Assembly (NCBI GenBank): GCA_024405895.1
Contig: JAKSNW010000014.1
Span: 1 to 46,900 of the forward strand
Source: Paludibacteraceae bacterium
GTDB lineage: Bacteria; Bacteroidota; Bacteroidia; Bacteroidales; Paludibacteraceae
Reading direction: 5' to 3'
Length of the DNA: 46,900 bases
Positions 1-46,900 of the stretch are shown here, piece after piece (position 1 is the stretch's first letter; every line of letters begins with the position of its first letter). The notes below the pieces were generated by a model. The model searched no databases, was not told where the DNA came from, and saw only the letters and a program-made list of their open reading frames with translations. The position numbers and the translations under genes are program-made.

Positions 1-160
1 CCGCATCGCAGACAGACTTCCAAATTTTGTGGAAACCAATTTCCGCATCGCAGACAGACTTCCAAATTTTGCGGAAACCAATTTCCGCATCGCAAACTGA
101 TTTCCAAATCTTGTGGAAACCATACCTGGATGCGCTTATCGTGTTCCTAATTTTGTGGAA
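1..160. repeat. 42-bp palindrome array, left end outside the window
   Basis: Four 17-nt imperfect palindromes of the form TTCCAAATTTTGTGGAA lie at 18-34, 60-76, 102-118 and 144-160, exactly 42 bp apart. The 25-nt linkers of the first copies contain CCGCATCGCAGACAGAC. The third copy has diverged in linker and core, and the fourth keeps the spacing although its linker is mostly rewritten (core TTCCTAATTTTGTGGAA). The array probably starts before base 1. It overlaps a small open frame made of the repeated peptide, which I do not regard as a gene. Confidence 0.85.
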
Positions 161-17361: not shown

Positions 17362-18168
17362 CTAAAGAAAAAAATCGGCCTTTTTTTCGGAGGCATAATG
17401 TGTTTCCAACATCCTGACGTGGGAGCTAAAGTCTTCGTTGTCAAAATGCTTTGCTTGATTAGGGCAAACCCTGATGCAGCCGTGGCATTTGATGCAGACT
17501 CCGTCCTCCAGCGGTTTACCCTCCGGTGACAGTGTGCCCATTGGGCAAAGGCTGCTGCAAAGACCGCAATGTGTGCACAGTGCTTCGTCGGTTTGCGGTT
17601 TAGCCTTGAGAAAGTTCACGGGATTGCCGTCCATTCCCTTCGGTGTGTAGTATTTGCATGGCCATTCGCCTGGAATCTCTTGGCTTATAGCGTTGTAGTC
17701 TTTGGTGATGATGTCTTGTGCAAATCTTCTTACGGCTTCAAGGTCTTGGTTTGTTGGACGTCCTTTGGCAAGTTTTTCCGTGAAGGCATGTTCCGAAGGT
17801 ATGGCTGCTGCTCCCGTCAACCTAAATCCGCGAGCCGTCAGCACCTGCTCCAACTCTTTGAGTGCATTGTCGTAACTTCGGTTGCCGTAGGTGACGGTGA
17901 TAATCACAGGCGTGTTGTCTCCATGCAGATTATTCTCAACGAAAGGCAACAGTTTGTTTGGAATACGTCCAGCATAGACAGGCAGACTGACCACCACGAT
18001 GTCGTCCTTGCCAAACGAGTAGTCGGTTGTCCTTTTCTGGGGTGTTGTGATGTCAATCAACTGTTGTCTTGACGTTGAGGGCTTTAATGTCTGAAGTATG
18101 GCTTGACATACTTTCCGACTGTTGCCCGTAGGACTGAAACAAATGCCGTAGGATGAGGTTGTTGCCAT
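17362..18168 (-). CDS. EFR1-type flavodoxin-ferredoxin fusion
   Basis: From ATG 18168 the protein has 268 residues. The N-terminal half is flavodoxin-like: YGICFSPTGNSRKV as the FMN phosphate loop, then DIVVVSLPVYAGRIP and IITVTYGNRSYDNAL. The C-terminal part carries two 4Fe-4S motifs, CTHCGLCSSLCP and CIKCHGCIRVCP. Such EFR1 family ferrodoxins are predicted electron-transfer proteins in anaerobes; the partner is unknown. An in-frame TTG at 18198 is excluded because the promoter -7 box (18196-18203) overlaps it. No clear terminator follows before the FKBP promoter. Confidence 0.88.
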   Translation of the reverse strand: MATTSSYGICFSPTGNSRKVCQAILQTLKPSTSRQQLIDITTPQKRTTDYSFGKDDIVVVSLPVYAGRIPNKLLPFVENNLHGDNTPVIITVTYGNRSYDNALKELEQVLTARGFRLTGAAAIPSEHAFTEKLAKGRPTNQDLEAVRRFAQDIITKDYNAISQEIPGEWPCKYYTPKGMDGNPVNFLKAKPQTDEALCTHCGLCSSLCPMGTLSPEGKPLEDGVCIKCHGCIRVCPNQAKHFDNEDFSSHVRMLETHYASEKKADFFL

Positions 18169-18195
18169 TGGTGTAGCTTCGTTTATTTGGGGCTG

Positions 18196-18203
18196 CAAAT
18201 ATA
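18196..18203 (-). promoter_or_regulatory. -7 box for the EFR1 gene
   Basis: The minus strand reads TATATTTG (TAnnTTTG), 28 bp before ATG 18168. It fixes the start codon choice. No clear -33 TTTG at 20 bp. Confidence 0.5.
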
Positions 18204-18320
18204 CTGATTAGTTTCAGTATCGGCAGCTCGAAGGTCTGATTTTACACTTGTGTTAGGTTGAAAATCGCTCTTTATTATTGAGAACATCGTGCCAAATCGT
18301 GTTTTTCTCTCTTGATTTTG

Positions 18321-18603
18321 CAAATCTGCAAATGCCGGCGGTCAAAATCAAGTTGATTTTACGAGTCTAAAAATGCCGACAGCCAAAAACAAATTGATTT
18401 TACGAGTCTACAAATGCCGACAGCCAAAATCAAGTTGATTTTACGAGTCTACAAATGCCGACAGCCAAAATCAAGCTGATTTTACGAGTCTACAAATGCC
18501 GACAGCCAAAATCAAGTTGATTTTACGAGTCTACAAATGCCGACAACCAAAATCAAGCTGATTTTACGAGTCTATATTTGCAGATGTTAACGAACACTAA
18601 TTT
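18321..18603 (+). repeat. 41-bp palindrome array, six units, with conserved ends
   Basis: Six 41-bp units begin at 18330, 18371, 18412, 18453, 18494 and 18535. Each has a 14-nt lead (AAATGCCGACAGCC), a 17-nt palindrome (AAAATCAAGTTGATTTT or variants) and a 10-nt tail (ACGAGTCTAC). The left edge reads TTGCAAATCTGCAAATG. The right edge reads TATTTGCAGATGTTAACGAA followed by CACTAATTTTTTT. The edges are imperfect inverted repeats (ATCTGCAAAT / ATTTGCAGAT). It lies beyond the nqrF terminator and upstream of the EFR1 promoter. Related arrays are at 31721-31880 and, inverted, at 46720-46900. Confidence 0.92.
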
Positions 18604-18689
18604 TTTTGTCGTATTTCTTTTCAAAAACTCTGATTTTGGACTTGAAGACGGATGTTTGTGGTCGAATGAGACGGTAGGGCAAAAAAATA

Positions 18690-18740: not shown

Positions 18741-20036
18741 TTATCCGCCGAAGTTGTCGAAACGAATCATATCGTCTTCAACGCCAAGGCTGTGCAAGAG
18801 GTCAAGCACGGTCTTTGCCATCATTGGAGGTCCGCAGAGATAGTATTCGCAATCCTCTGGTGCCTCGTGTGCCTTGAGGTAGGTGTCGCCCATAACAGGA
18901 GCTACGAAGCCAGCTGTATACTTGATACCTGCTGCATCTGCTTTTGGATCTGGACGGTCGAGGGCCAAGTGGAAGTGGAAGTTAGGGAAGTCCTTCTCAA
19001 GCTGCAGGAAGTCGTCGAGGAATGGGATTTCCTCAAGAGCACGTGCACCATAGAAGTAGTGCATTGGACGTTGACGATCTTCTGGTGCGATGCCATTGCC
19101 TTTGAGCATGTGCATGATTTGTGCACGGAGAGGAGCCATACCGGCACCACCACCTACCCAAATCATTTCGCGGCCTGAACCATAGACAGGACGGAACTCG
19201 CCGTAAGGACCTGACATGATTACTTTGTCGCCTGGTTTGAGGTTGAAGATGTATGAAGAAGCGATACCAGGATTTACGTCCATGAAGCCAGGACCCTGCT
19301 CTTTTGGTTTGAAAGGAGGGGTAGCGATACGAACGTTAAGGGTGATGATGTCGCCTTCGTCAGGATAGTTGGCCATTGAGTATGCACGGATGGTTGGCTC
19401 TGTGTTAGAGCAGTGCAAATCGAAGAGACCAAATTTCTCCCAAGCTGGAAGATAGGTGTCTCCGATGAGTGAACGGTCGTAATCCTTATAGTCAATCTCG
19501 AATGCAGGAATCTTGATCTGAGCGTAAGAACCAGGTTCGAAGTTCATGTGTTCGCCAGCAGGTAGAGCCACTTTGTACTCCTTGATGAAGGTAGCCACGT
19601 TCTTGTTGCCAATAACGGTGCATTCCCATTCTTTTACGCCGAGAACGCTTTCTGGAACCTGCATGTCGATGTTGTTCTTAACCTTAACCTGGCAACCGAG
19701 ACGCCAGTGGTCTTTCATCTGTTTGCGTGAGAAGTGAACGGTTTCTGTTGGGAGAATCTCGCCACCGCCGTCAAGCACTTGGCATTTGCATTGACCGCAA
19801 GAACCTTTACCACCGCAAGCTGATGGGAGGAATACACCTGCGTTAGAGAGTGAAGAGAGCAGTGAACCGCCAGCTGGGATGTTCAGGGTGGTGTCACCGT
19901 TGAGTCTTACTTCAACATCGCCTGAAGCTACGAGATAGCGTTTTGCTATCAAGAGCACAATCACAAGCAAGATGATAACTGCCAAGAATACCACCAAGCA
20001 TGTGAGTATTGAAAGTGAATTAATTGCTACTAACAT
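18741..20036 (-). CDS. nqrF: Na+-translocating NADH:quinone reductase subunit F
   Basis: Entry subunit: oxidises NADH and passes electrons through FAD and a 2Fe-2S centre. From ATG 20036 it has 431 residues: one N-terminal membrane helix (about 5-30), a 2Fe-2S domain with C74, C80, C83 and C115, the FAD motif RAYSMANYP, the NADH-site GGGAGMAPLRAQI and the C-terminal CGPPMM...FDNFGG. A TTG at 20048 would extend it by four residues into nqrE and is less likely. It is the last gene of the complete nqrABCDEF operon and is followed by a terminator. Confidence 0.97.
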   Translation of the reverse strand: MLVAINSLSILTCLVVFLAVIILLVIVLLIAKRYLVASGDVEVRLNGDTTLNIPAGGSLLSSLSNAGVFLPSACGGKGSCGQCKCQVLDGGGEILPTETVHFSRKQMKDHWRLGCQVKVKNNIDMQVPESVLGVKEWECTVIGNKNVATFIKEYKVALPAGEHMNFEPGSYAQIKIPAFEIDYKDYDRSLIGDTYLPAWEKFGLFDLHCSNTEPTIRAYSMANYPDEGDIITLNVRIATPPFKPKEQGPGFMDVNPGIASSYIFNLKPGDKVIMSGPYGEFRPVYGSGREMIWVGGGAGMAPLRAQIMHMLKGNGIAPEDRQRPMHYFYGARALEEIPFLDDFLQLEKDFPNFHFHLALDRPDPKADAAGIKYTAGFVAPVMGDTYLKAHEAPEDCEYYLCGPPMMAKTVLDLLHSLGVEDDMIRFDNFGG

Positions 20037-20040
20037 AAGA

Positions 20041-20688
20041 TTATCCAATTTTCAAGCCTGAGAAACAAAGGAATGCCATTGACATGAGGCCTACGGTGAT
20101 GAATGTGATGCCCAAGCCGCGGAGTGGTGCAGGAACCTGTGAGTACTCCATTTTCTCTCTGATAGCAGCAAGACCTACGATGGCAAGCATCCAACCAAGA
20201 CCAGAACCGAGAGCATAGAATACTGTGTCGAGGATACCGGTGATGGCTTTTGGGTCGGTTGGCTCGAGGCCGATACGTTGTTGCATGAAGAGTGAAGCAC
20301 CCATGATTGCGCAGTTTACAGCGATCAAAGGCAGGAAGATGCCCAATGAGGCATAGAGTGAAGGTGAGAATTTCTCAACAATCATTTCTACCAATTGCAC
20401 GATAGCAGCGATAACTGCAATGAACAAGATGAAGCTCAAGAAGCTGAGGTCGAGGGTTGCGAAACCTTCGCCCAACCATGCGAGAGCGCCTTTCTCCAAC
20501 ACTTTGGTCTGCAAGAGGTAGTTTACTGGCAATGTAACGAGCAGCACGAATGTTACTGCAACGCCCAAGCCCAATGAGGTTTTTACGTTCTTAGAAACAG
20601 CAAGGTAAGAACACATGCCCAAGAAGAACGCAAAAATCATATTGTCCACGAAGATGGAGCGTATGAATAAGTTAAGTGCGTGATCCAT
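20041..20688 (-). CDS. nqrE: Na+-translocating NADH:quinone reductase subunit E
   Basis: A 215-residue integral membrane subunit with about six helices, homologous to NqrD and to RnfA. It shows the paired half-motifs [19 protein letters not shown] and [12 protein letters not shown], whose conserved cysteines participate in the intramembrane iron-sulfur site between NqrD and NqrE. It starts at ATG 20688, 63 bp after nqrD, and its stop is 4 bp before nqrF. Identification is certain from sequence and gene order. Confidence 0.97.
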
Positions 20689-30875: not shown

Positions 30876-31622
30876 ATGCGAAAACATATACCTAACATAC
30901 TCACCTGCCTGAATCTCCTTTCTGGTGCTTTTGGCGTGTGCCTCTTGTTGTCGGTTGGCAACGGCAGCGAAAGTGCTCTGGTTCAATGTGTAGAGAATAG
31001 CAACGTTTGTTTGGAAACCTTGGTCTTCCTGTGTGTTGCCTGCTCTGCCGTCTTCGACTTCCTCGATGGCTTTGTTGCTCGTTTGTTGGGTGTGTCGTCG
31101 CCTATAGGTAAGGAGCTTGACTCTCTGGCCGACCTTATCAGCTTTGGTATGTTGCCTACTGCCATGGCTTTCACCATGGTTTCCACTCACTTAAGTACAC
31201 TGGAAATGAACTTTAATCTCAAAGTGCTGATTGAGTGTTTGTGTTGGATCATGTTGGCATTCTCGGCTTTGAGATTGGCTAAGTTCAATGTGGACACGCG
31301 ACAGACCACTTCCTTTATCGGATTGGCTACGCCAGCCAACGCACTGATGTGGTTAGGTTTGTTCTGCAGTGGTGTATGGATGTCATTGCCTTGGTGGGTG
31401 ATGTTTGTCTTGATTTTCGTTTGCAGTTTCCTGTTGGTCTGCGAGTTGCCTATGTTCTCGTTCAAGATTCACTCACTACGTTGGGCAGAAGCCAAGTATC
31501 AGATTCTTCTTGTTATGGGTGCAGTCTCGCTCTTGCTTTCCTGCGGCTTTGCTGGCTTGAGCCTGACCATCATCTGGTACATCTTCCTGTCACTGTTGAA
31601 ATTAGGTTTGGAAAAGAAATAA
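30876..31622 (+). CDS. pssA: CDP-diacylglycerol--serine O-phosphatidyltransferase
   Basis: An integral membrane enzyme making phosphatidylserine, the precursor of phosphatidylethanolamine. The 248-residue protein carries the complete CDP-alcohol phosphotransferase motif: D61, D64-G65, A68-R69, G78, D82, D86 within FDFLDGFVARLLGVSSPIGK and ELDSLAD. About seven hydrophobic segments are visible. It lies 11 bp after the amidase gene and ends in a terminator. Serine as acceptor is inferred from length and N-terminal similarity (IPNILTCLNLLSG). Confidence 0.93.
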   Translation: MRKHIPNILTCLNLLSGAFGVCLLLSVGNGSESALVQCVENSNVCLETLVFLCVACSAVFDFLDGFVARLLGVSSPIGKELDSLADLISFGMLPTAMAFTMVSTHLSTLEMNFNLKVLIECLCWIMLAFSALRLAKFNVDTRQTTSFIGLATPANALMWLGLFCSGVWMSLPWWVMFVLIFVCSFLLVCELPMFSFKIHSLRWAEAKYQILLVMGAVSLLLSCGFAGLSLTIIWYIFLSLLKLGLEKK

Positions 31623-31690: not shown

Positions 31691-31720
31691 TTGAAGAAGC
31701 ATTTTTCCCGTTTGTTTTTG

Positions 31721-31880
31721 CAAATCTATAAATGTCGGCAGCCATTTCAAAAATTAAAATGGCAGTCGAGAAATGCCGACTCTCATTTCAAAAATTAAAA
31801 TGGCAGTCGAGAAATGCCGACTCCCATTTCAAAAATTGAAATACGAGTCTACATTTGTAGATGTTAACGACTATTAATTT
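31721..31880 (+). repeat. 41-bp palindrome array, three units, private core
   Basis: Units of 41 bp begin at 31730, 31771 and 31812, with 17-nt cores at 31744, 31785 and 31826 (ATTTCAAAAATTAAAAT twice, then ATTTCAAAAATTGAAAT). The leads (AAATGCCGAC...) and the edges (GCAAATCTATAAATG on the left; ATTTGTAGATGTTAACGACT on the right) match the array at 18321. The core and the tails of the first two units (GGCAGTCGAG) are different. The last tail reverts to ACGAGTCTAC. It lies between the convergent pssA and tdk genes. Confidence 0.9.
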
Positions 31881-32087: not shown

Positions 32088-32669
32088 TTATTTGTTGTGG
32101 AGCTTGTTGAAACAATCACGGCAGATTGGTTCGTACTTGTCGGTTTCTCCCAACAGCACCTGCTTATCTCCAGCCACGAGTCGGTGTGACACGTAGGCAG
32201 GCATGCCGCAATGCACGCAGATGGCATGAACCTTGCTCACGTCGTCAGCTATGGCCATCAGCTTAGGCATCGGACCGAATGGTCGGCAGAGATAGTCCAT
32301 GTCGAGGCCTGCTATGATGACACGGATGCCCATCTTGGTCAGTTCCTGGCAGACATCAACCAAGGTTTCGTCGAAAAATTGTGCCTCGTCGATACCTATC
32401 ACATCCACATCGCCACATAGCAACAGGATACTCTCGGCGGTTTCGACAGGTGTGGAAATCAGAGCGTTGTGGTCGTGACTCACTACCTCGTCCTCGGAAT
32501 AGCGGGTGTCGATGGCTGGTTTGAAAATCTCAACGCGTTGTTTTGCAATCTTGGCACGTTTCAGTCGGCGAAGCAATTCCTCCGTTTTTCCTGAGAACAT
32601 GGAGCCGCAGATTACCTCGATACTGCCGCGTCGTTGGGCTTGATTGACGTATGATTCAAAAAAATCCAT
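32088..32669 (-). CDS. tdk: Thymidine kinase (type II)
   Basis: Salvage enzyme that phosphorylates thymidine to dTMP with ATP. The 193-residue protein has the P-loop [18 protein letters not shown] (from G22), the DEAQFF block with the catalytic glutamate near 98, and a zinc ribbon made of CVHC and CRDC. The length is typical of the family. It is a single-gene unit with a clear terminator. A possible promoter lies about 150 bp upstream, within the start region of the divergent gene. Confidence 0.95.
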
Positions 32670-46655: not shown

Positions 46656-46719
46656 TTGTTCTTGACCTACTGTTTATTTGGCAGAAGTCATCCTTTAGGG
46701 TGATAATATGACCGAAAAA

Positions 46720-46900
46720 ATTAGTGTTCGTTAACATCTACAAATATAGACTCGTAAAATCAGCTTGATTTTGGCAGTCGGCATTTGTAGACTCGTAAAA
46801 TCAATTTGTTTTTGGCAGTCGGCATTTGTAGATTCGTAAAATCAGCTTGATTTTGGCAGTCGGCATTTGTAGATTCGTAAAATCAACTTGATTTTGGTTG
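46720..46900 (-). repeat. 41-bp palindrome array in inverse orientation, cut by window end
   Basis: Reverse complement of the array type at 18321. The edge TTAGTGTTCGTTAACATCTA is at 46721-46740. Units of 41 bp begin at 46749, 46790, 46831 and 46872 (partial). The 17-nt cores are at 46756, 46797, 46838 and 46879. The second core, read in array direction as AAAAACAAATTGATTTT, is identical to a variant core in the 18321 array. The lead reads GCCGACTGCC instead of GCCGACAGCC. It lies beyond a terminator and continues outside the window. Confidence 0.9.

Follow-up and report, generated by a model that had tools for sequence, protein, structure and literature searches.

The four tandem arrays of the 46,900-nucleotide window, which is the entire contig C6 of a draft Paludibacteraceae genome (G000; 39 contigs totaling 1,722,264 bases, completeness 78%; its EFR1-type ferredoxin and a SusC/RagA protein fit Bacteroidota), are best explained, with a probability of about one half, as the repeat-filled middles of short, dispersed, non-coding MITE-like intergenic elements with an inner minisatellite. 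This reading is preferred because recognizable ends recur at differing intergenic sites, because the sister sites are free of arrays and because many clusters have nearly the same period. Most likely the elements are for the most part selfish or neutral and owe their 41-43-bp unit length to something that acts on the repeat, not to a host requirement for one particular site; what keeps the length may be inheritance, a size-setting process or selection for spacing.

Four arrays with periods of 42, 41, 41 and 41 bp had been described by a sequence-only reading, and all are where it placed them. TRF gives them as 1-122 (period 42, 2.9 copies), 18312-18574 (period 41, 6.4 copies), 31742-31842 (period 41, 2.5 copies) and 46747-46897 (period 41, 3.7 copies), each with 0% indels and far above chance level, and a query of two units from the 18-kb array has 24 genome matches, with E 3.2e-33 for the best one outside this contig. 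The single design attributed to the four arrays resolves, however, into two families, with arrays 2, 3 and 4 belonging to family A (41 bp) and array 1 to family C (42 bp), for which there are four further array sites elsewhere in the genome. The 17-nt dyad that was said to mark every unit is, by eye, good in arrays 2 and 4 (AAAATCAAGTTGATTTT), whereas array 3 has only part of it (ATTTCAAAAATTRAAAT) and array 1 an imperfect version (TTCCAAATTTTGTGGAA). The features of the window are as follows.

1..122, + strand: family-C array, period 42, unit CCGCATCGCAGACAGACTTCCAAATTTTGTGGAAACCAATTT, truncated by the contig start.
123..240, + strand: tail of the family-C element, similar in a second copy (the C6 and C8 copies, extent judged by eye).
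18302..18604, + strand: complete family-A element with a T-rich left end, a 41-bp array, an inverted last linker and the right end GATGTTAACGAACACTAATTTT, its limits set from the alignment of 15 left and 15 right ends; it lies between two - strand genes, that for the EFR1 ferredoxin (17362-18198) and nqrF (18741-20048).
18330..18574, + strand: the 41-bp array within that element, about six units of AAATGCCGACAGCCAAAATCAAGTTGATTTTACGAGTCTAC (TRF and extracted units).
31702..31880, + strand: complete family-A element with a B-type core, ATTTCAAAAATTRAAAT (TRF and aligned ends); the convergent neighbors are a pssA-like gene (30876-31622, + strand; the model behind the name scores under its cut-off) and tdk (32088-32669, - strand).
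46716..46900, - strand: family-A element truncated by the contig end, its right end at 46716 and its array reaching the contig end.

Family A has 8 complete copies in G000 and a further 14 truncated by contig ends, the complete ones ranging from about 2 to about 7 units, each 41 bp long. Half of the unit is filled by a near-palindrome, the variable core, and the other half is the constant linker, which at one mismatch or fewer is found in G000 only within array copies. A strict pattern extracted 64 units (53 distinct) from 15 of the 22 copies and none from 7 short ones, and as it required a neighbor at 41 bp the set is no evidence on spacing. The core had been thought to vary freely; judged by eye, these 64 units fall mainly into three core types. 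When 15 left ends and 15 right ends are aligned, both kinds recur within otherwise unlike surroundings. The left end, TTTTTC...TTGATTTTGCAAATC, is by eye near consensus in 11 of 15 cases, with C14_end, C30_end, C3_39k and C3_14k departing from it, and the right end has GTTAAC in all 15, as the search required, continuing by eye to TAATTT in 13. The final linker runs opposite to the others, so that the right end starts with an inverted linker, and the first and last linkers are mutual inverted copies (ATCTACAAATGTAGAC) located inside the recurring ends. Neither a terminal inverted repeat nor a target-site duplication is demonstrable from these aligned ends, and the T runs that flank several copies on both sides prove nothing about target-site duplication. 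Recurrence of ends was examined in family A, in family C and, by eye, in a few other clusters. Family A thus has the look of a dispersed repeat with recurring ends, something that the sequence-only reading did not perceive.

Compared with gene ends, as the sequence-only reading had proposed, family A lies mostly behind genes: of its 30 flanking genes, 25 turn their 3′ end toward it (P 1.5e-4, background 0.49), and 5 of the 8 complete copies are in convergent spacers, an arrangement seen in 24 of 128 spacers of the background (P 0.011). Both statistics use simple ORF-based gene calls, with the background taken from an analysis with cruder calls, which placed 6 of the 8 in convergent spacers. 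In being non-coding, short, multicopy and intergenic, family A is like MITEs in general. The non-A clusters have no 3′-end preference (22 of 42 sides), and several of their 42-bp arrays overlap long ORFs, as a period divisible by 3 easily gives ORFs. In the sister species, genome G017, TRF of C123:20001-40000 revealed no array in the nqrF-ferredoxin spacer and none in the tdk-pssA spacer, so that both of the two window loci tested are array-free there, while the adjacent proteins are 84-88% identical. The distribution of arrays coincides with assembly breaks: 32 of the 75 contig ends examined in G000 lie in arrays of the 41-43-bp kind, which is expected for dispersed repeats in a draft assembly; contig ends are array-enriched through assembly itself.

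Beyond families A and C, about 620 kb of G000 (75 of the 78 contig ends, all but the distal ones of C37, C38 and C39, together with the window, regions around arrays and internal stretches adding up to 400 kb) yielded 50 TRF arrays of base period 41-43 or 84. They fall into 14 clusters, defined as having no linking BLAST match of at least 30 bases at 1e-4, and 14 is the upper limit on independent origins within the part examined. With lags of 25-60 bp allowed, all 196 unit spacings in these arrays, which were preselected for period 41-43 or 84, are 41 (79), 42 (110) or 43 bp (7), and five arrays have mixed spacings. Because the 50 arrays were selected by period, a fairer figure comes from the 400-kb internal sample, chosen blind to arrays, where 10 of the 17 arrays with a TRF score of at least 80 have period 42 or 84. 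Among the 13 of them with periods of 30-100 bp, the same 10 (two of which are neighbors in L166) are joined by one of period 33, one of 51 and one of 83, the last lying next to a Y1 transposase gene. All 3 arrays of period 30 or more in 446 kb of the sister genome have a period of 41 or 82 bp and a different sequence, and a thin sample of 19 other genomes of the family (253 kb, 1.7 to 20 kb per genome) has 4 arrays of period 30-100 bp, none of them at 41-43. The sequence-only reading had considered that a neutral tandem-duplication origin would suffice if the genome held only a few arrays and their spacing was lost in relatives; what was found is 50 arrays in 14 clusters and a sister that also has 41 bp, and the claim withstood this check. 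Since 14 clusters are at 41-43 bp and the 41-bp arrays of the sister differ from them in sequence, unit length is kept beyond sequence. Short low-complexity repeats, for instance ATCGCCTC and AACGTTAACG, are also present (L070:2032-2179, L155:3871-4081, L173:2786-2865, L144:1386-1444 and L138:1464-1500), some of them near 42-bp arrays.

Several clusters probably share descent through module exchange, to judge from the resemblance of their units. Among 19 unit consensuses, 23 of the 171 pairs exceed the best of 20 shuffles where about 8 would be expected; four of these are within clusters as linked by BLAST (E-F, H-L165a, D-L163 and C-L163), and between clusters the figure is 19 of 166, with F-G, L169-L166b, H-L166b, F-L163 and G-L169 the strongest. 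Modules also appear flipped in place. L165:2977-3209 has, by eye, GCATTTTGCAATT and its near reverse complement at almost the same register, and in G017 TTTCGTGA and TCACGAAA, from L193 and L225, are by eye one module in both orientations at near-equal register; such flips preserve unit length without any selection. Both the excess sharing and the flips of L165 and G017 L225 would suit neutral descent of most clusters from a single ancestral array with a unit near 42 bp, whose sequence was changed by module exchange while its register was simply inherited, with no constraint on length. That account is nevertheless rather unlikely, as A, I, J, K, M, L155, L165b, L166a and the arrays of the sister have no pair at z of at least 5, as the 196 spacings differ by single base pairs only in the face of no fewer than 366 substitutions among 35 arrays (picked as in-register, so that the ratio to length changes is not clean), and as the published Porphyromonas gingivalis unit is, according to PMC4596501, likewise 41 nt. 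Selection on geometry, with the units being putative sites, spaced at four turns of the helix, to which a regulatory protein or one associated with the nucleoid would bind, is unlikely too, though the sequence-only reading was right to the extent that length is kept beyond sequence. The 42-bp spacing, 110 of the 196, is exactly 4 x 10.5 and puts successive dyads on the same face of the helix as that reading had it, but the 79 spacings of 41 bp, family A included, are by arithmetic 3.9 turns at 10.5 bp per turn with a drift of about -34 degrees per unit, and the notion of one helix side for all dyads has to be discarded. In L165:8566-8869 a 16-nt palindrome, ATCGAACTTGTTCGAT, is mostly kept every 42 bp despite strongly diverged linkers and with little length change, as a site for a protein might be. 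(This array sits between divergent ORFs, one of which encodes a DUF6261 protein.) Across 24 representatives, several of them from one cluster, the P value of the dyad against shuffles ranges from 0.002 to 0.99: it is 0.05 or less in A (0.05), A/C35, E and F (0.045), G (0.035) and M (0.002) and 0.067 in L165b, but at least 0.78 in H (0.93), I (0.81), L166b (0.99), L163 and both G017 arrays. A palindrome in every array is thus rejected, dyads beating shuffles in some clusters only, and curvature predicted from wedge angles is ordinary, with a mean P of 0.52 in 17 representatives. The idea of helical phasing thus has partial support, and units so unlike in sequence would demand many proteins or one reader of structure only.

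For family A in particular, REP/BIME-like arrays generated by Y1 (IS200-like/RAYT) transposases acting on single-strand GTAG hairpins have to be considered, and it is here that this origin, improbable as it is overall, is most plausible. Of the 64 family-A units, 54 carry GTAG at the base of the hairpin (+ strand, 27; - strand, 31; both strands, 4), and the genome has two Y1_Tnp genes, L214:1396-1854 (C5) and L215:1402-1857 (C1), the former adjoined by GTAG-tagged palindromes, GTAGCCAGCCATTCATATGGCTGG. According to PMC3733652, REPs are 20-40 bp long with spacers mostly of 20-100 bp, and GTAG REPs favor tandem and convergent spacers, so that the family-A palindromic units, intergenic and often behind genes, are similar to them in placement as well as in tag; the strict 41-43-bp register of the arrays here is different from that description. 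Over the 14 clusters, however, the GTAG tag is at chance level (3 of 14 against 4.1 expected), on account of which RAYT as builder of all the clusters is rejected and is a rival for family A only. At both Y1 loci, moreover, the gene is among palindromic repeats of its own and is not flanked by the array repeats, and the sister genome carries 41-bp arrays with no Y1_Tnp match and with GTAG only once in 727 bases of arrays and their edges. With tandem repeats of 344 bp and 83 bp nearby, the two Y1 loci are REPtron-like; the Y1 cluster L214:2002-3309 adjoins an hsdM-like gene, judged from translation alone, and the 42-bp array L169:8752-9134 is 179 bp from another hsdM-like gene. The location of family A behind genes would also suit structured transcripts that serve as sponges, stabilizers or terminators, as would the folding of its reverse strand, which in three representatives is better than that of shuffles (z -2.75, -3.59 and -4.46, with -1.71, -2.71 and -2.93 for the forward strand). 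Such a role, one of the possibilities in the sequence-only reading, is very unlikely: over 23 representatives folding is modestly better than that of shuffles and equal on the two strands (mean z -1.22 and -1.19), and an Rfam search of the window gave no match.

The MITE-like reading has its closest published counterparts in P. gingivalis, papers on which were the only relevant ones among the literature matches listed. As described in PMC4596501, MITE464/PgRS is dispersed in some 10-20 copies with an inner 41-nt tandem repeat and repetitive flanks, and BrickBuilt, also of some 10-20 copies, is intergenic, linked to assembly gaps and composed of a leader, a 23-nt minisatellite and a tail. The likeness of family A to MITE464/PgRS as so described is in the length of the inner tandem repeat, about 41 nt, the dispersal and the repetitive flanking parts. 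The differences are that the MITE464/PgRS terminus GAGACTGTTGCA is absent from the 8 complete A elements (4-5 mismatches of 12 at best, on either strand), that here many clusters share the period, and that no IS5-type partner was found in G000 or G017. To BrickBuilt the arrays here are similar in copy number, in intergenic placement and in their link to assembly gaps, and families A and C also, as far as the leader and tail design goes, in having recurring ends; in contrast the 23-nt repeat AGAYCATARTATCCTCTCRTRTG is absent (across 8 sequences the closest match has 5 mismatches of 23), as is the terminus (at best 4-5 mismatches of 12), the right end of family A being an inverted linker instead.

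Regarding a DDE transposase partner, there is no match to PF01609 or PF05598 in G000, at 78% completeness, or in G017, these two families and Y1 being the ones searched. Insertion sequences are often missing from draft assemblies. A CRISPR origin of the arrays is rejected, as the entire 41-bp unit repeats and the CRISPR-like arrays of G000 look different: L141:20-640 (C18 start) and L150:1006-1500 (C32 end) have a 36-nt repeat, GTTGTGGTTTGATGTAGATTAGATATAAAACCCAAC, with spacers of about 30 nt. Outside this genome a search for family A alone among 150 genomes of the family found one, G000 itself, and an insensitive composite search of 300, scoring two candidates per genome, found G000 and G017 only, the G017 matches being to its own units included in the query. 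Family A has no match in viral contigs (exact pattern) or in phages and plasmids (blastn). Scanning named genomes with a pattern turned up 21 stretches, 7 of which were inspected; 4 of these, streptococcal or lactobacillar, are pairs of TACATTTGTA-like sites near genes, presumably CopY/BlaI-type operators, and a different thing. The one Bacteroidales hit, L079:4883-5012 (JAKSLD010000012.1, a MAG, Horse_feces90), has a 41-bp array of about three units with a 22-nt near-palindrome, excluded from the counts as its spacing was imposed by the search pattern.

If the MITE-like reading is correct, a candidate recombinase would spread family-A copies, slippage or unequal recombination would multiply and lose units, and template switching at hairpins would sometimes flip near-palindromic modules in place with their length unchanged, while length changes of more than 1 bp would be removed or never made. 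It is possible, though this is put forward tentatively, that a cellular process of this genus, perhaps shared with further Bacteroidota, makes or keeps 41-43-bp arrays of any sequence, so that it is length that is the conserved property. Were that so, the partly unlinked clusters, the 41-bp arrays of the sister and the published 41-nt element of P. gingivalis would be products of one machine or constraint.

Bacterial minisatellites are usually regarded as chance products with scattered unit lengths. The arrays of this genome appear by analogy to resemble a little-studied class of mobile repeats of the P. gingivalis type, and the comparison suggests that the 41-nt elements there are one case of a wider class. 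With a unit length shared over differing sequences, and nearly equal in the sister, the question of what sets the length of bacterial repeats becomes testable.
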